Assembly: GCF_003751265.1 (NCBI RefSeq)
Contig: NZ_RJKN01000001.1
Coordinates: forward strand, 310,001 to 374,000
DNA: 64,000 nucleotides
DNA from: Pseudokineococcus lusitanus
GTDB lineage: Bacteria > Actinomycetota > Actinomycetes > Actinomycetales > Quadrisphaeraceae
Reading direction: 5' to 3'
This document shows, piece by piece, positions 11,921 through 44,290 of the stretch. The notes beneath the pieces were generated by a model, which saw nothing but the letters and a program-made list of their open reading frames with translations, was not told where the DNA came from and did no database searches. Positions within the stretch are counted from its first letter, which is position 1. Every line of letters begins with the position of its first letter. The translations under genes and the position numbers were made by a program.

Positions 11921-12964
11921 TCAGAAGGCGACCTCGGCCTCCGCGGGCTCGGCCGGCTTGTCGACCTGCGGGCCGACGCCGAGCTTCTCCTTGATCTTCT
12001 TCTCGAGCTCGTCCGCGAGGTCGGGGTTGTCGCGCATGAAGGCGCGCGCGTTCTCCTTGCCCTGGCCGAGCTGGTCGCCGTCGTACGTGTACCAGGCGCC
12101 GGACTTGCGGACGAAGCCCTGCTCGACGCCCATGTCGATGAGGCCGCCCTCCCGGGAGATGCCGTGCCCGTAGAGGATGTCGAACTCGGCCTGCTTGAAC
12201 GGCGGGCTGACCTTGTTCTTGACGACCTTGACCCGGGTGCGGTTGCCGACGGGCTCGGTGCCGTCCTTGAGCGTCTCGATGCGGCGCACGTCGAGGCGGA
12301 CGGAGGCGTAGAACTTCAGGGCCTTGCCGCCCGTCGTCGTCTCGGGCGAGCCGAACATCACGCCGATCTTCTCGCGCAGCTGGTTGATGAAGATCGCCGT
12401 GGTGCCGGAGCTGTTGAGCGCACCGGTGATCTTGCGCAGGGCCTGCGACATGAGGCGGGCCTGGAGGCCGACGTGGCTGTCGCCCATCTCGCCCTCGATC
12501 TCGGCGCGGGGCACGAGCGCGGCCACCGAGTCGATGACGATGACGTCGAGCGCGCCGGAGCGGATGAGCATGTCGGCGATCTCGAGGGCCTGCTCACCCG
12601 TGTCGGGCTGGCTGACGAGCAGCGCGTCGGTGTCGACGCCGAGCTTCTTGGCGTAGTCCGGGTCGAGCGCGTGCTCGGCGTCGATGAAGGCGGCGATGCC
12701 GCCGGCGCGCTGGGCGTTGGCCACGGCGTGCAGCGCCACGGTCGTCTTTCCCGACGACTCCGGGCCGTAGATCTCGACGACGCGGCCGCGGGGCAGGCCG
12801 CCGATGCCGAGCGCGACGTCCAGCGAGATGGCGCCGGTGGGGATGACCTCGATGGGTGCTCGGACCTCGTCGCCGAGACGCATCACCGAGCCCTTGCCGA
12901 ACTGGCGGTCGATCTGGCCGAGGGCCGTCTCGAGGGCCTTGCCGCGGTCTGCCGTCACGGGCAT
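11921..12964 (-). CDS. recA: Recombinase RecA
   Basis: RecA forms filaments on single-stranded DNA, drives strand exchange and triggers LexA self-cleavage. The 347-residue protein has the normal length and all core motifs: Walker A GPESSGKT (67-74), Walker [11 protein letters not shown], loop L1 with [20 protein letters not shown], and loop L2 with [20 protein letters not shown]. No intein is present. ATG 12964 is preceded by GAGGTGATGAC, giving a usable ribosome binding site. Upstream are a RecA-NDp/PafBC-type promoter (13024-13046) and, further out, a LexA box (13116-13131), so damage control is probably dual, as in mycobacteria. Confidence 0.99.
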
Positions 12965-13023: not shown

Positions 13024-13046
13024 ACGCTAGGAGCGCCCACCGACAG
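13024..13046 (-). promoter_or_regulatory. RecA-NDp/PafBC-type DNA-damage promoter of recA
   Basis: The minus strand reads CTGTCGGTG, then 8 nt, then TAGCGT. This matches the LexA-independent damage promoter consensus TTGTCRGTG-N8-TANNNT with one mismatch in the 9-mer. The predicted transcript start is about 50 nt upstream of the recA ATG. Confidence 0.8.
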
Positions 13047-13108: not shown

Positions 13109-13131
13109 ACGGTACTCGGACACGCGTTCGA
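13109..13131 (-). promoter_or_regulatory. LexA box and adjacent -10 of the distal recA promoter
   Basis: The minus strand reads TCGAACGCGTGTCCGA at 13131-13116, a single mismatch from the actinobacterial SOS box TCGAAC-N4-GTTCGA. A TACCGT hexamer (13114-13109) follows one base later, so bound LexA would block this promoter. The recA leader from here would be about 140 nt. Confidence 0.75.
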
Positions 13132-38890: not shown

Positions 38891-40084
38891 TCAGGGCCCG
38901 AGCCGGAGGGCCGGGTCCGCGGCGACGGGCAGCGGCACCGCCGGGTCGAGCAGCCCCCGGAGGCGCGCCACCTGCCCGTCCCAGGACCACGTCGAGGCCA
39001 CCCACTCCCGGCCCGCCGCGCCCATGGCCCGCGCACGGGCGCGGTCCCGCAGCAGGGCGGCCACCGCGGCGGCGACGGCGGCCACGTCGCGCCCGTCCAC
39101 GACGAGCCCGGTGCGCCCCTCGAGGACCGCGTCCGGGGCGCCGCCGGAGCGCCCTCCCACGACGGCGAGCCCGGTCGCGGCCGCCTCGAGGTAGCAGATG
39201 CCCAGGGCCTCCGGCTCGAGGCCGAGGAGCCGGGTGCGCGTCGGCATGGCGAAGACGTCGCCGGCGGCGTAGTGCTCCGGCGTGCGGTCCCAGCCGACCC
39301 GCCCGGCCATGACGACGGCATCCGCGACGCCGAGGCGGCGGGCCAGCCGCTCGACGCGCCGCCGGGCGGGGCCGTCGCCGACGACGAGGAGCACCGCGTC
39401 GGGCACCTGCGCCAGGACGGCGGGCAGGGCCCGGACGAGGACGTCCTGGCCCTTGCGGGCGACGAGGCGCGAGACGCAGACGACGACGGGCCGGTCGCCC
39501 AGCCCGTGGGCGCGGCGGACGGCGCCGTCGCCGGCCCCGGGCCGGAAGCGCGTGGCGTCGACCCCCGGCACGAGGCGCTGGAGCCGCTCGCGGGCGGCGG
39601 GCGCGAGGGGGCGGGCGATGCGCCCCGCGCACCACGGCCCGAGGGCGGTGACGACGTCGACGCGCCGGCCGATCGCCCGCAGCGCCGTCCGGGCGCCCGG
39701 CAGGGAGGACCACCAGACCTCGTGGCCGTGCGTCGTCGCGACGAGGCGGCGCACCCCGGCCCGGCGGAGCGCGGGCGCCATGAGGGCCAGCGGCGCGGCG
39801 GCGCCGAACCAGACGCGGTCGCAGCCGTGCTCGCGCGCCGTCGCGACGACGCGGCGCACGACCGCGGGCGTCGGCACGAGCAGGCGGGCCGGGTCGCGGA
39901 CGACGGGGAAGGGCAGGGCCGCGTCGTGCGCCGCGTCGCCCGGCTGGCGGGCGGTGTGGACGACGACCTCGTCGGCCGGCAGCCGGGTCGCGACGGCGAG
40001 GACGAAGGACTCGATGCCGCCCGTGCGCGGCGGGAAGTCGTTGGTGACGACGAGCGTCCGGCCACCACGGGGGGACGGCGCCAC
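38891..40084 (-). CDS. GDP-mannose-dependent GT4 glycosyltransferase, PimB'-like
   Basis: PimB' adds the second mannose to phosphatidylinositol mannoside on the inner face of the membrane. The 397-residue GT4 protein has the characteristic start TLVVTNDFPPRTGGIESF, the VVCVSRLVARKGQDVL strand, VVGDGPARRRVERLA, and the nucleotide-sugar site LGLEPEALGICYLEAAATGL with its EX7E motif. GTG 40084 is 1 nt after the stop of the HExxH protein gene, so it is likely part of an operon running from 41763. It is convergent with the fadD15-like gene. Confidence 0.88.
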   Translation of the reverse strand: MAPSPRGGRTLVVTNDFPPRTGGIESFVLAVATRLPADEVVVHTARQPGDAAHDAALPFPVVRDPARLLVPTPAVVRRVVATAREHGCDRVWFGAAAPLALMAPALRRAGVRRLVATTHGHEVWWSSLPGARTALRAIGRRVDVVTALGPWCAGRIARPLAPAARERLQRLVPGVDATRFRPGAGDGAVRRAHGLGDRPVVVCVSRLVARKGQDVLVRALPAVLAQVPDAVLLVVGDGPARRRVERLARRLGVADAVVMAGRVGWDRTPEHYAAGDVFAMPTRTRLLGLEPEALGICYLEAAATGLAVVGGRSGGAPDAVLEGRTGLVVDGRDVAAVAAAVAALLRDRARARAMGAAGREWVASTWSWDGQVARLRGLLDPAVPLPVAADPALRLGP

Positions 40085-40085
40085 G

Positions 40086-41516
40086 TCAGGCCGTCCCCGC
40101 GAGCGCGACGACGTCGTCTCGCCACTGCTGCTCGAGCACGGCCAGGTCCACGCCGAGCACCTGCGGGACGGCCTGCTCGGGCGGGACGGGCGCCGCGCCG
40201 GGCACGACCTCGCCGGCCACCTCGGCCGGGGCCCGCCCGGTCGTGGCGCGGACGAGCTCCAGCAGGGCCGGGCGCCCGTACCGCTGCTCCACCGTCCGGG
40301 CCGCGAGGTAGGCGGCGCCGTAGGCCGGCGCGACGTCGCCGCGCGTCGCGTCGAAGGCCTCGGGGGCGGGGAGGGACGCCGGCGGCCCGTCGCGGCGGAC
40401 CGCGTCGAGGAGGTCGGCGGCCACGGCCTCGGGCGGCAGCGCCTCCTCGCCCTCGCCGGGGGCGTAGCCCACGAGGTCGGCGAAGCCCTCGGACAGCCAG
40501 AGCGGCGGGTCCGCGGCGGCGCCGGCGCGGACGGCCACGTGCGTCGTCTCGTGCGTGAGGACGACCGTGCGGCCGCGCTCCTCCAGCCGGGCCAGGCCGG
40601 AGGGGTTGACGAGCACGCGGTCGACGGCCCCCTCCGCGCCCGCGGCACCGGAGCCGCGCTCGGCGCCGACGGTGAGGGCCGCGAGCTGGTCGAGCCCGGC
40701 CGTGCCGTCGCGCCCGAGCACGCGGGCGAGCTGCTGCTCGTCGGCGGGGACGACCAGCACGGTCCGCCGGGGCCACGACGTCCCCCAGACGGCGTCGACC
40801 CGGCGGGCCGCGACGTCGCCCAGCGCCCCCTGCTCCTCGAGCACCGCCCGCGGGGCGGTGCCGACGACGACCGTCCGCTCGGTCTGCACGACGTCGACGA
40901 CGCCGAGGTCCCACAGGTCGGCGCGCGTGGGGCCGTCGTCGTCCGCGGTGAGGAGCCACGCGCCGTCGCGGCGGACGACGGTGAGGGACTGCTCCCGCTG
41001 CTGGTCCACGGGGTCGACGCCCGCCACCCGGTAGGACAGGAGCACGTCGGCCACCCAGGCGTCCGGCCCCAGCTCGGCGAGCCGGCCGGCCCCGAGCGGG
41101 GCGCCCTCGCCCCGCACCTCGTAGGACCAGCGCTCGAGCGGCACCCGCGCGAGCCCGGTGGCCGTGGCCTCCTGGCGCGCCCGGAAGTCGGGGGCGGCCG
41201 GGTCCGCCGTCCCGACGACGCCGGCGACGTCGCCCGCCAGCACCGCGGCGGCACGGCGGTCGAGCAGCTCCTGCAGCGCGGCCTCCCGGGCCTCCGCGGC
41301 GGGCACCGCCGACGCGGTCGGCGACGGCGACGGGTCGGGTGCGCCGACGTCGGGCCCGTCCGCCGCCCGGGGCACGAGCAGGGCCGCGGCCACGCCGAGG
41401 ACGACGACGAGGGCGCCGACGAGGAACAGGGCGGACCGGCCGGGGCGCCGCCGCCGGCCGGCGGGCCGGGCGGCGCCCGCGTCAGCCCGCCCTGGTCGCC
41501 CGTCCACGCCGGGCAT
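40086..41516 (-). CDS. Membrane-anchored gluzincin-like HExxH protein
   Basis: No named family is certain. The 476-residue protein has a basic cytoplasmic N-terminus, one membrane helix (about residues 29-49), a Ser/Pro-rich stalk, and a large extracytoplasmic domain. The latter contains HETTH (His322, Glu323, His326) and, 17 residues on, LSEGFADLVG with Glu343, the zinc site arrangement of gluzincin metallopeptidases of the M1/M61-like type. ATG 41516 overlaps the upstream small gene by 35 nt; TACGAT just before it could also be a weak internal -10. It is translated upstream of pimB' with a 1-nt gap. The substrate may be envelope proteins. Confidence 0.8.
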   Translation of the reverse strand: MPGVDGRPGRADAGAARPAGRRRRPGRSALFLVGALVVVLGVAAALLVPRAADGPDVGAPDPSPSPTASAVPAAEAREAALQELLDRRAAAVLAGDVAGVVGTADPAAPDFRARQEATATGLARVPLERWSYEVRGEGAPLGAGRLAELGPDAWVADVLLSYRVAGVDPVDQQREQSLTVVRRDGAWLLTADDDGPTRADLWDLGVVDVVQTERTVVVGTAPRAVLEEQGALGDVAARRVDAVWGTSWPRRTVLVVPADEQQLARVLGRDGTAGLDQLAALTVGAERGSGAAGAEGAVDRVLVNPSGLARLEERGRTVVLTHETTHVAVRAGAAADPPLWLSEGFADLVGYAPGEGEEALPPEAVAADLLDAVRRDGPPASLPAPEAFDATRGDVAPAYGAAYLAARTVEQRYGRPALLELVRATTGRAPAEVAGEVVPGAAPVPPEQAVPQVLGVDLAVLEQQWRDDVVALAGTA

Positions 41517-41763
41517 CGTAGGAGCCGCCGGCCGGCGGCCCGTCCGCCGCGGGCGGGCCGACGGGCACGAGCCGCAGCGGCGGGACCAGGCCCGAGCCCG
41601 CCAGCACGGCGATGGCCGCGCGCTCGGCCTCGTCGAGGTCCTCGGCGGGCCGCGGGCCCGCCGGCTCGTCCCGGCGGACCGCCGGCATGCCCAAGAGCAC
41701 GCTGACGACGCAGTCGGAGCAGGCCGGGCCACGCACCGCGCAGCCGTCGCAGTCGACGATCAC
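41482..41763 (-). CDS. Small CxxC-x6-CxxC protein, conserved actinobacterial hypothetical
   Basis: The 93-residue protein begins VIVDCDGCAVRGPACSDC, giving two CxxC pairs (Cys5, Cys8, Cys15, Cys18) that look like a zinc-ribbon or small metal site, followed by VVSVLLGMP, an acidic helix (EDLDEAERAAIAVLAGSGLV) and a basic disordered tail. I recognise the start as a conserved pattern of unannotated actinobacterial proteins, but no function is known. GTG 41763 has GGGGAG 7 nt upstream. Its promoter carries a RecA-NDp/PafBC-type motif (41812-41834), so it is probably induced by DNA damage. It overlaps the HExxH protein gene. Confidence 0.82.
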   Translation of the reverse strand: MIVDCDGCAVRGPACSDCVVSVLLGMPAVRRDEPAGPRPAEDLDEAERAAIAVLAGSGLVPPLRLVPVGPPAADGPPAGGSYDARRGRATRAG

Positions 41764-41811
41764 AGCAACTCCCCTCGCTCGGCGGCCGGGGGACCCCGAC
41801 CGACGCGACGG

Positions 41812-41834
41812 ACGCTAGGGAGGGGCACCGACAA
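41812..41834 (-). promoter_or_regulatory. RecA-NDp/PafBC-type DNA-damage promoter of the CxxC protein operon
   Basis: The minus strand reads TTGTCGGTG, 8 nt, TAGCGT. This is a perfect match to the published consensus TTGTCRGTG-N8-TANNNT. The predicted leader is about 40 nt and contains the ribosome binding site. Confidence 0.82.
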
Positions 41835-41942
41835 CGCCCCCGCCGCGCCGCCCCGGGGTCCGCGTCGACGGCCCGGCGCGGGCGGGCCCCGTCGACCGGC
41901 CGCCGCGCCCGCCACCCGGTCGGCGGGCGCGGCGGCCGGTCG

Positions 41943-41965
41943 CTGTCGGGGGGCCCGCCTACGGT
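41943..41965 (+). promoter_or_regulatory. Partial RecA-NDp-like promoter of the DEDD/GIY-YIG gene
   Basis: CTGTCGGGG, 8 nt, TACGGT: seven of nine positions of the upstream element agree with TTGTCRGTG, with exact spacing to the -10. TACGGT ends 7 nt before the ATG at 41973. Confidence 0.5.
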
Positions 41966-41972
41966 CCCCCGC

Positions 41973-44012
41973 ATGCCCGTCGCCCTGCCCCGCACCCCGC
42001 CGGCCGCGCCCCCGCCGGCGCCCGGCGCCCCCCGGGCGCCGCGGGTCCCCGTCCAGACGTCGCTCGACGACCTGGGGACGCCCCTGCACGAGGTGACGTT
42101 CGTCGTCGTCGACCTCGAGACGACGGGCGGCTCGTCGCGCACGTGCGCCATCACGGAGATCGGCGCGGTGAAGGTGCGGGGCGGCGAGGTGCTCGGCGAG
42201 ATGTCGACGCTCGTGGACCCGGGCGGCCCCGTCCCGCCGCTCATCACGGTGCTCACGGGCATCACCGACGCCATGCTCACCGCGGCCCCGCGCGTCGAGG
42301 AGGTGCTCCCGGCCTTCTGGGAGTTCGTCGGCGACGCCGTCCTCGTCGCGCACAACGCCCCCTTCGACACGGGCTTCCTCCGGGCCGCGGGCGCCCGCGC
42401 CGGACGCCGCTGGCCGGGCAACGAGGTCGTCGACACGGTGCCGCTCGCCCGGGCCGTCCTGGCCCGCGACGAGGTCCGCAACCACAAGCTGGCCACGCTC
42501 GCCGAGCACCTCGGCGCCACGACGACCCCGACGCACCGCGCCCTCGACGACGCGCGCGCCACGGTGGACGTCCTCCACGGCCTCCTGGGCCGGCTCGGCG
42601 GCGTGGGCGTCCGGACGCTCGAGGACCTCCGCGAGCAGCAGCGCGCCGGCACGCGGGTCTCCCCCGCGCGGCGCGCCCGCCGCCACCTCGCCGAGGGCCT
42701 GCCCGACGCGCCGGGGGTCTACCTCTTCGTCGACGCGCTCGGCGAGGTCCTCTACGTCGGCACGTCCCGCTGCATCCGGCGCCGGGTCCGCAGCTACTTC
42801 ACGTCCTCCGAGACCCGCGCGCGCATGGAGCAGATGCTCGCGCGCGCCGCCCGGGTGGTCCCCGTGGTCTGCCCGACGCCGCTCGAGGCCGCCGTCCGCG
42901 AGCTGCGCCTCATCGCCGAGCACCGGCCCGCCTACAACCGCCGCTCGACGCGGCCGGAGCGGACCCGCTGGCTCAAGCTCACCGACGAGGCCTTCCCCCG
43001 GCTGTCCGTCGTCCGACGGGTGGCCGAGGACGGCGCCACCTACCTCGGTCCCGTCCGCGGCGCGGCGGCGGCCGCGCTGGCGGTCGAGGCCCTGCAGGAG
43101 GCGCACGCCCTGCGCCGCTGCGCGGGGCGGCTGCCCGCCCGGCCGTCCCCGTCGGCGTCGGCGTGCGCCCTGGCGGCGCTCGGGCGGTGCGGGGCCCCCT
43201 GCACCGGGGCCCAGGACCGCGAGGGCTACTCCGTGGTGGTCGAGGCGGCGCGGGCCTCGATGCTCGACGACCCCCGTGCGGTCGTCGAGGCGGGCCTGCG
43301 CCGGGCGGGCGAGGCCGCGGCCGCCGAGCGCTTCGAGGAGGCCGCCGCCCACCGGGACCGGCTGCTGGCCTACCTCGCCGCCGCCGGCGCGCGGCAGCGG
43401 CTCGCCCCCCTGGCCGCGGCGCCCGAGCTCGTCGCCGCCCGTCGCCGTCCGCCGGAGGACGGGGGCGGCTGGGAGCTCGTCCTCGTCCGCCACGGACGGC
43501 TGGCGGGCACGGCGGTCGCGCCGGCCGGCACCGACCCGATGGTCGTCGTGGCGTCCCTGCGGCAGGCCGGCGAGGTCGTCGGCGCGCCGGCCGGACCGGC
43601 GCCGGCCGCCCTCGTCGAGGAGACCGAGCTCGTGGCGCGCTGGCTCGAGCAGGAGGGCGTGCGCCTCGTCGAGCTCGACGGCGTGTGGGCCAGCCCGCTG
43701 CACGGGGCCGCCGGCGCCGCGGGGCGCCTCCGGCTCCCCCTCCCCCCGGTGGAGGAGCTCGCGGCCGTGGCCGAGGAGGCGGCGGGCGCCGACGCGGTCG
43801 TCGCCTGGCCGGCCGAGGAGGCCCGGGGCGTGCCGGACGAGGAGGACCCAGAGGAGGACGCCGACGCGACCGGCGCACCCGTCCCCCCGGGGCCGGGTGC
43901 CGTCGCGCCGGCGGCGCACCCGCCGGCGGCCGCGGCCCGCTCGACGCCGACGGCCCCGCGCGCCACCCTGGGCGCGCCCCTCACCGCCGAGACCGCCGGA
44001 GCGCGTCCGTGA
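41973..44012 (+). CDS. DEDD exonuclease / GIY-YIG endonuclease fusion with UVR-like motif
   Basis: The 679-residue protein joins a DnaQ-type 3'-5' exonuclease to a UvrC-like N-terminal nuclease. Residues 40-205 hold the DEDDh set: VVVDLETTG (Asp47, Glu49), VAHNAPFDTGFL and HRALDDARAT. Residues 245-330 hold GIY-YIG: APGVYLFVDALGEVLYVGTS, RRVRSYF. A Cys-containing region (ALGRCGAPCTG) and a UvrB-contact-like UVR motif (RFEEAAAHRDRL, near 450-463) follow. The UvrC C-terminal endonuclease and HhH domains are missing. The last 70 residues are Ala/Pro-rich. This matches the architecture of mycobacterial Rv2191. ATG 41973 is leaderless after TACGGT. Confidence 0.93.
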   Translation: MPVALPRTPPAAPPPAPGAPRAPRVPVQTSLDDLGTPLHEVTFVVVDLETTGGSSRTCAITEIGAVKVRGGEVLGEMSTLVDPGGPVPPLITVLTGITDAMLTAAPRVEEVLPAFWEFVGDAVLVAHNAPFDTGFLRAAGARAGRRWPGNEVVDTVPLARAVLARDEVRNHKLATLAEHLGATTTPTHRALDDARATVDVLHGLLGRLGGVGVRTLEDLREQQRAGTRVSPARRARRHLAEGLPDAPGVYLFVDALGEVLYVGTSRCIRRRVRSYFTSSETRARMEQMLARAARVVPVVCPTPLEAAVRELRLIAEHRPAYNRRSTRPERTRWLKLTDEAFPRLSVVRRVAEDGATYLGPVRGAAAAALAVEALQEAHALRRCAGRLPARPSPSASACALAALGRCGAPCTGAQDREGYSVVVEAARASMLDDPRAVVEAGLRRAGEAAAAERFEEAAAHRDRLLAYLAAAGARQRLAPLAAAPELVAARRRPPEDGGGWELVLVRHGRLAGTAVAPAGTDPMVVVASLRQAGEVVGAPAGPAPAALVEETELVARWLEQEGVRLVELDGVWASPLHGAAGAAGRLRLPLPPVEELAAVAEEAAGADAVVAWPAEEARGVPDEEDPEEDADATGAPVPPGPGAVAPAAHPPAAAARSTPTAPRATLGAPLTAETAGARP

Positions 44013-44290
44013 TCACCGCCATCGTCCTCGTCGACACCGAGGCCGCCCTCATCCCCGAGGCGGCCGCCGCCATCGCCGACCTGCCCGACGTCACGGAGGT
44101 CTACTCCGTGACGGGCGACGTCGACCTCGTCGCCGTCGTGCGGGCCCGCCGCCACGAGGACCTGGCCGACGCGGTCGCCGACCGCATCAGCAAGGTGCCC
44201 GGCGTCGTGCGCACGCGCACGCACATCGCCTTCCGCACCTACTCGCGGCACGACCTCGAGCAGGCCTTCGACCTGGGTCTCGAGGGCTGA
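44009..44290 (+). CDS. Stand-alone Lrp/AsnC ligand-binding (RAM) domain protein
   Basis: The 93-residue protein is an Lrp/AsnC effector domain without the DNA-binding helix-turn-helix: [40 protein letters not shown], and a C-terminal [20 protein letters not shown] domains form dimers and higher rings and bind amino acids. GTG 44009 overlaps the DEDD/GIY-YIG stop (GTGA), so it is translationally coupled to the nuclease; it is convergent with trpD. Similar genes lie beside trpD in many actinobacteria, so a link to tryptophan or amino-acid sensing is possible but unproven. Confidence 0.9.

Follow-up and report, generated by a model that had tools for sequence, protein, structure and literature searches.

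The window analysed here is a stretch of 64,000 nucleotides from Pseudokineococcus lusitanus, in which two sets of genes are read away from a shared intergenic region. This region holds two candidate promoters of the PafBC (RecA-NDp) type, and the features on either side of it are as follows.

38891-40084, minus strand: pimB'-like GT4 glycosyltransferase, starting 1 nt after the stop of the HExxH gene
40086-41516, minus strand: putative membrane-anchored HExxH (HETTH...WLSEG) metallopeptidase, 476 aa
41482-41763, minus strand: small CxxC-x6-CxxC protein, 93 aa, widespread in actinobacteria
41812-41834, minus strand: predicted PafBC/RecA-NDp-type promoter of the CxxC operon, exact consensus, conserved before CxxC homologues
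41943-41965, plus strand: predicted PafBC-type promoter of the nuclease gene at leaderless spacing, motif match conserved before nuclease orthologues
41973-44012, plus strand: DEDD exonuclease plus GIY-YIG nuclease (NF005907), 679 aa, identified by Pfam and NCBIfam
44009-44290, plus strand: Lrp/AsnC ligand-binding-domain protein, overlapping the nuclease stop

Read from 41834 to 41812, the minus-strand site consists of the -26 element TTGTCGGTG, the 8-nt spacer CCCCTCCC and the -10 element TAGCGT, with 0 mismatches to tTGTCRgtg-8 nt-TannnT, the consensus as printed for RecA-NDp/PafBC in PMC5656591. The plus-strand site (41943-41965) consists of CTGTCGGGG, the 8-nt spacer GGCCCGCC and the -10 element TACGGT; it matches 7 of 9 positions with an intact -10, and both mismatches lie outside the TGTCRG core. 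The earlier note had described an exact match on the minus strand and, on the plus strand, a 7-of-9 version with the same spacing leading to the nuclease start, and we found both as described; the two divergent sites are present, 108 bp apart. Both motifs are oriented toward their genes and lie a short distance from the starts. On the minus strand, the end of the -10 and the GTG start codon of the CxxC ORF are 48 nt apart, and a purine-rich segment resembling a Shine-Dalgarno sequence lies between them. On the plus strand, 7 nt lie between the -10 and the nuclease ATG, which is, as judged from the sequence, the spacing of a leaderless mRNA. An ordinary -35/-10 promoter was rejected, as only 11 nt separate TTGTCG from the -10. 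We found no LexA box in 41701-42000, where the best candidate has 5/12 mismatches, and since recA in the same window does have a box with one mismatch, the earlier claim that this region would respond to damage without LexA fits the data. The recA features are given below.

12155-12940, minus strand: recA
13024-13046, minus strand: PafBC-type motif of recA, an internal positive control
13116-13131, no strand assigned: LexA (SOS) box upstream of recA, 1 mismatch

With both a PafBC-type motif and a LexA box upstream, recA is a built-in comparison within the same window.

We searched the genome of the organism itself (3.84 Mb in 19 contigs) for the motif. Exact consensus sites number three, the minus-strand site of the window being one of them, and sites with up to two mismatches number 85 versus 20 for the reversed pattern. 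Since the reversed control also yields 20 sites, a single two-mismatch site proves little, and this count is what speaks for a chance resemblance in GC-rich DNA. The stricter core TGTCRG-N10-TANNGT occurs at 13 sites versus 0 for its reverse, and both window sites are among them. ORFs downstream of these 13 sites were chosen by script and nine were run against Pfam, giving uvrB, an SbcD-like metallophosphatase, a RecQ-like helicase, a 5'-nucleotidase, dnaX, a ribonucleotide reductase, a RadA-like ATPase, a DUF222 protein and one ORF without a match (the labels SbcD-like, RecQ-like and RadA-like were assigned from domain content). The remaining four sites precede recA, the CxxC gene, the nuclease gene and a start nearly identical to that of the DUF222 gene (locus L159). 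Repair or replication genes thus stand behind 8 of the 13 strict sites. At seven of the 13 (L148, L150, L153, L155, L157, L158 and L159), 7-8 nt lie between the -10 and the chosen start, a spacing that suggests leaderless mRNAs. The other two exact sites, L158 (G000:C5:316371-316393) and L159 (G000:C8:187990-188012), precede near-identical gene starts at 7-nt spacing; L158 belongs to the DUF222 protein, and the gene at L159 is cut by a contig end. The strict site L160 (G000:C14:9882-9903) lies 48 nt before a 311-aa ORF, for which Pfam gave no match.

On the plus-strand side, the nuclease scores 842 bits against NF005907 (PRK07883; cut-off, 454), with PF00929 and PF01541 also over cut-off, so that Pfam and NCBIfam agree with the earlier label of a DEDD/GIY-YIG nuclease. 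Matches were present in 12 of 13 genomes of the same family. Eleven of these loci were complete enough for comparison (G004, a fragment, and G002, with no match, were left out), and the nuclease-directed motif has at most two mismatches in 10 of them, while L041 has a degenerate form only. For a broader set, we took 80 loci from titled records, of which four with too little upstream DNA were left out. The earlier note had proposed looking for the motif upstream of homologues, and this search recovered it with up to two mismatches on the nuclease strand in 49 of the 76 titled loci (shuffles, 4/760) and, within 200 nt upstream of the CxxC gene, in 88 of 130 loci (shuffles, 6/2600). On the opposite strand of the titled-locus stretch, the corresponding figure is 6/76 (shuffles, 4/760). 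Motif direction is reported to matter, and the form given for Mycobacterium tuberculosis is TGTCGG, TGTCAG or TGTCAC-N10-TA-N3-T (PMC8151990). The Lrp/AsnC-domain gene overlapping the nuclease stop is probably co-transcribed with it. Its product is a stand-alone domain without a helix-turn-helix, and a homologue lies within the fetched DNA of 73 of the 80 titled loci.

The 130 CxxC loci were drawn from a larger set. A profile built from 24 such CxxC proteins (A2) detects the gene in 241 of the 393 class genomes and in 85 of 123 genera; the loci examined (30 plus 100, picked non-randomly among the matches listed) cover 28 families and 53 genera, with f31 g55 supplying 20 rows and f26 g54 supplying 12. 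The best site has 0, 1, 2, 3 and 4 mismatches in 18, 34, 36, 31 and 11 loci, respectively, and in 33 of the 53 genera, the best locus has two or fewer. Random windows of the same loci gave 6/1114 and the reversed pattern 0/130. In a spacer scan, 8 nt gave 88 loci, 4-7 and 9-12 nt gave 4-12, and 13 nt gave 30; the 13-nt signal was discarded, as all 30 loci re-use the -26 element of their best 8-nt site. TGTCR-N16-TANNNT was found in 0/130, while the short form TGTCR-N11-TANNNT occurs in 96/130, with 0 or 1 loci at each of six other spacings. We consider a chance resemblance extremely improbable, as the shuffle, reversed-pattern, random-window and spacing controls reject it for the conserved sites, and conservation had already refuted it.

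At 42 of the 130 loci, the best site is weak, with 3-4 mismatches, and 26 of these read TGTCRNACC with a [TC]ANNNT -10. Judged by its sequence, this form is a lineage variant. In f31 g55, 16 of the 20 loci have CANNNT as the -10, and in 19 of them all the start follows after 6-8 nt. Outside the class, 20 of the 57 loci (among L299, L302, L304-L321 and L322-L358) again show a TGTCRNACC -26 with its distance to the -10 unchanged, perhaps reflecting a different recognition preference of PafB there. Four loci from genomes of 1.2-1.5 Mb (L251-L254) retain the CxxC gene with a one-mismatch motif 6-7 nt from its start.

The same gene was also recognized directly near the nuclease. Using the expression [DE]CxxC...CxDCV for a small ORF near nuclease loci, we found it in Kribbella, Jiangella, Geodermatophilus, Cellulomonas, Blastococcus and Actinoallomurus, among others. 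Such genes are present at 35 of the 80 titled loci, and 32 of the 35 have a motif with up to two mismatches within 200 nt upstream. Within the family of the window's organism, eight loci were scanned with the expression over about 1.5 kb of DNA preceding the nuclease, and seven of them (six g4, one g2) gave no match.

Since the two genes are often close neighbors, the minus-strand site could work only within the control region of the nuclease, with the CxxC gene a bystander. We located both genes in 78 loci, and the gap between them is shorter than 450 nt in 47, as this reading would have it; there, at up to two mismatches, both motifs are present in 27, the nuclease motif only in 10, the CxxC motif only in 5 and neither in 5. 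However, among the 31 loci with a larger gap, 22 keep both motifs, while 3 have the CxxC motif only, 2 the nuclease motif only and 4 neither. The divergent pair is therefore common but not required. The motifs also face the start of the CxxC gene, and some lineages have them at the leaderless spacing of 6-7 nt; we regard the bystander reading as very unlikely. In four large-gap loci, the intervening DNA encodes an NYN-like protein (L223, L285) or contains a small ORF of zinc-ribbon-like type (L197, L209, L285). An NlpC/P60-type gene follows the CxxC gene in L193, L232 and L251; these three labels were given from sequence motifs.

As for the activator, the genome encodes PafA (TIGR03686, 734 bits), PafB (WYL plus WCX) and PafC (PF19187 at 135 bits, plus WYL and WCX) within about 6.5 kb on contig C1; pafB and pafC occupy about 150.1-152.2 kb and follow pafA downstream at a distance of about 3 kb. 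We extended this to 296 genomes of the phylum, of which 76 have the CxxC gene, some of them outside the class, and 192 have PafC (PF19187) over cut-off. PafC is also common in genomes without the CxxC gene, so co-occurrence of the two is weak evidence. By comparing the two match lists by hand, we found nine of the 76 CxxC-positive genomes to be without a strong PF19187 match: it is weak in G480, G634, G646, G597 and G657, and not among the matches listed for G542, G584, G604 and G661. The CxxC match in G584, at 18 bits and without the cysteine part, is probably spurious. In the out-of-class set of 57 upstream regions, one of which offers hardly any readable sequence and was scored as motif-less, the strict motif is present in 25 of the 48 PafC-positive loci (shuffles, 0.0), versus 1 of the 9 without a strong PafC match, two more of which have the relaxed form. 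The single one of these nine with the strict motif is G542; this genome is 92% complete, and G524 of the same genus does have PafC. The motif is thus not strictly tied to PafC: 23 of the 48 PafC-positive loci are without the strict motif and three of the nine others have it in some form.

Three of the genomes with weak PF19187 (G480, G634 and G646; loci L322, L323 and L324) belong to one genus, g191. Here, PF19187 reaches no better than E 1.6e-6, LexA is present, and the PafBC motif was found before the CxxC gene in 0/3. A LexA box with one mismatch precedes the gene in 3/3 instead, at a distance of 18-19 nt from where the profile match begins; shuffles at this mismatch level gave 0.05 of 57. 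Since the three genomes are from one genus, they count as one event at most. On sequence grounds, these boxes support a place for the CxxC gene in the damage response independently of the PafBC motif, and their position before the CxxC start is a further point against the bystander reading. At L338, a PafBC-type motif and a LexA box (1 mismatch) both precede the CxxC gene. In the class, 6 of the 130 CxxC loci have a LexA-like site with up to two mismatches (1.5 expected).

These data bear on whether the promoters could be real but served by another factor reading the same element, such as ClgR or another WYL protein. ClgR is reported to recognize recA P1 (Wang 2011, as cited in PMC5656591), there are two further WYL matches in the genome, and a strict or relaxed motif is found in the three of nine genomes without strong PafC mentioned above. 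On the other hand, the -26/-10 arrangement is that described for the PafBC initiation complex (PMC11804915), pafBC is present near pafA, and g191 lacks the motif and has a LexA box. We therefore favor PafBC and hold a different activator to be unlikely, if the least improbable of the alternatives.

Together, these findings suggest, with a probability of roughly 0.9, that two divergent sigma-A promoters of the PafBC type serve the nuclease gene and the CxxC operon under DNA damage. The mechanism would follow the one described for PafBC, which involves binding of single-stranded DNA and adaptation of sigma to the -26 element (PMC11804915). As published for M. smegmatis, single-stranded DNA would activate PafBC upon damage, which would let the housekeeping RNA polymerase use promoters where a -26 element (TGTCGG...) replaces the -35. 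In the plus direction, this would give a leaderless mRNA for the DEDD/GIY-YIG nuclease, probably together with the small Lrp-like gene, and in the minus direction an mRNA for the four-cysteine protein, probably together with the HExxH protein and PimB', whose genes overlap or adjoin. PafBC binding, damage induction and co-transcription at both promoters are what we infer from these arrangements. The CxxC, HExxH and pimB' genes are probably on one mRNA because of the 35-nt overlap at the HExxH start and the 1-nt gap before pimB', gene packing being the basis for placing the latter two on the CxxC transcript.

The CxxC protein is most likely the product of an uncharacterised actinobacterial DNA-damage-response gene, since its motif is conserved and often kept where the gene lies far from the nuclease gene, and g191 has a LexA box in front of the gene. 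Invariant positions are D4, C5, C8, C15, D17 and C18, along with a C-terminal block LxVLAxxGLVPPLR, and the four cysteines would form a Cys4 metal site. Searches gave no family in Pfam (E<=0.001) or NCBIfam (E<=0.1) and a single chance-level match among PDB sequences (E 1.3), and the AlphaFold model is poor (mean pLDDT 64.3). In tblastn with the window protein, neither phages (E<=1) nor plasmids (E<=0.01) gave a match. Among the papers that our literature searches listed, none dealt with the protein; the gene may appear uncommented in the Muller 2018 and Adefisayo 2021 datasets. We consider it most likely to act in the cytosol as an accessory factor in the damage response, binding a metal (probably zinc) through a Cys4 site, and perhaps, as a guess, to be a partner of the divergently encoded nuclease. 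That it is a phylum-wide damage effector, kept inducible through whichever regulator the lineage uses (PafBC in many, LexA in one genus) and possibly partnering or regulating the nuclease, strikes us as reasonably probable, if clearly less secure than the promoter assignment.

In the HExxH protein, a hydrophobic N-terminal helix is predicted at low confidence for residues 29-47, and H322, E323, H326 and E343 are invariant in six HExxH sequences. No Pfam family, Peptidase MA and DUF4157 included, matched it over cut-off; its homologue in L116 matches Peptidase_MA_2 below cut-off (25.8 versus 32.4 bits). Foldseek with the HExxH model returned, among the 50 matches listed, mostly M1, LTA4H and M61 peptidases, all weak (E >=1.6e-3, TM <=0.36).

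Work on non-SOS control of the DNA damage response in actinobacteria has centered on mycobacteria. The window resembles the mycobacterial PafBC regulon and its RecA-NDp promoters (recA P1) in the -26, the -10, the 8-nt spacing, the repair genes and pafBC near pafA, but it is from another actinomycete and places two such promoters back to back, one of them driving a family without a known role. It differs from the LexA/SOS regulon in that its intergenic region is without a LexA box, while the one-mismatch boxes before the CxxC gene in g191 and L338 resemble that regulon. As the motif is already known in other actinobacteria (PMC8223512), what seems new is the CxxC gene as a broadly conserved target rather than the promoter type. 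A conserved small protein would thus join the widely kept targets of non-SOS control, beside a repair-type nuclease. The data also suggest a regulator change, from PafBC to LexA, under which the gene stays damage-inducible, and a role of the protein in repair becomes directly testable in M. smegmatis or a similarly harmless actinomycete.

We take M. smegmatis MSMEG_4259 and M. tuberculosis Rv2191 to be the probable nuclease orthologues, from gene order; like the window nuclease, this presumed counterpart is a DEDD-type gene near a ripC-HExxH-pimB' block. MSMEG_4259, annotated as DNA polymerase III epsilon, is in an expression table with lexA, recA and ruvC (PMC9416677), and MSMEG_4256 is listed as the Rv2190c homologue (PMC3987819). 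In mycobacteria, Rv2189c is described as a DUF4157-like HExxH protein next to ripC with pimB nearby (PMC12067865); the terms "DNA damage," "SOS" and "PafBC" do not occur in the main text of that paper. Rv2189c resembles the window protein as an HExxH protein before pimB', but it is called DUF4157-like, whereas the window protein has no Pfam match over cut-off. Nine f12 loci match the window HExxH protein at 29-33% identity. At L232, a probable mycobacterial locus, an NlpC/P60-type gene lies between the CxxC and HExxH genes, unlike in the window, where there is none. At L234, another probable mycobacterial locus, the CxxC ORF may carry a His-Asp-rich N-terminal extension, which hints at metal handling.
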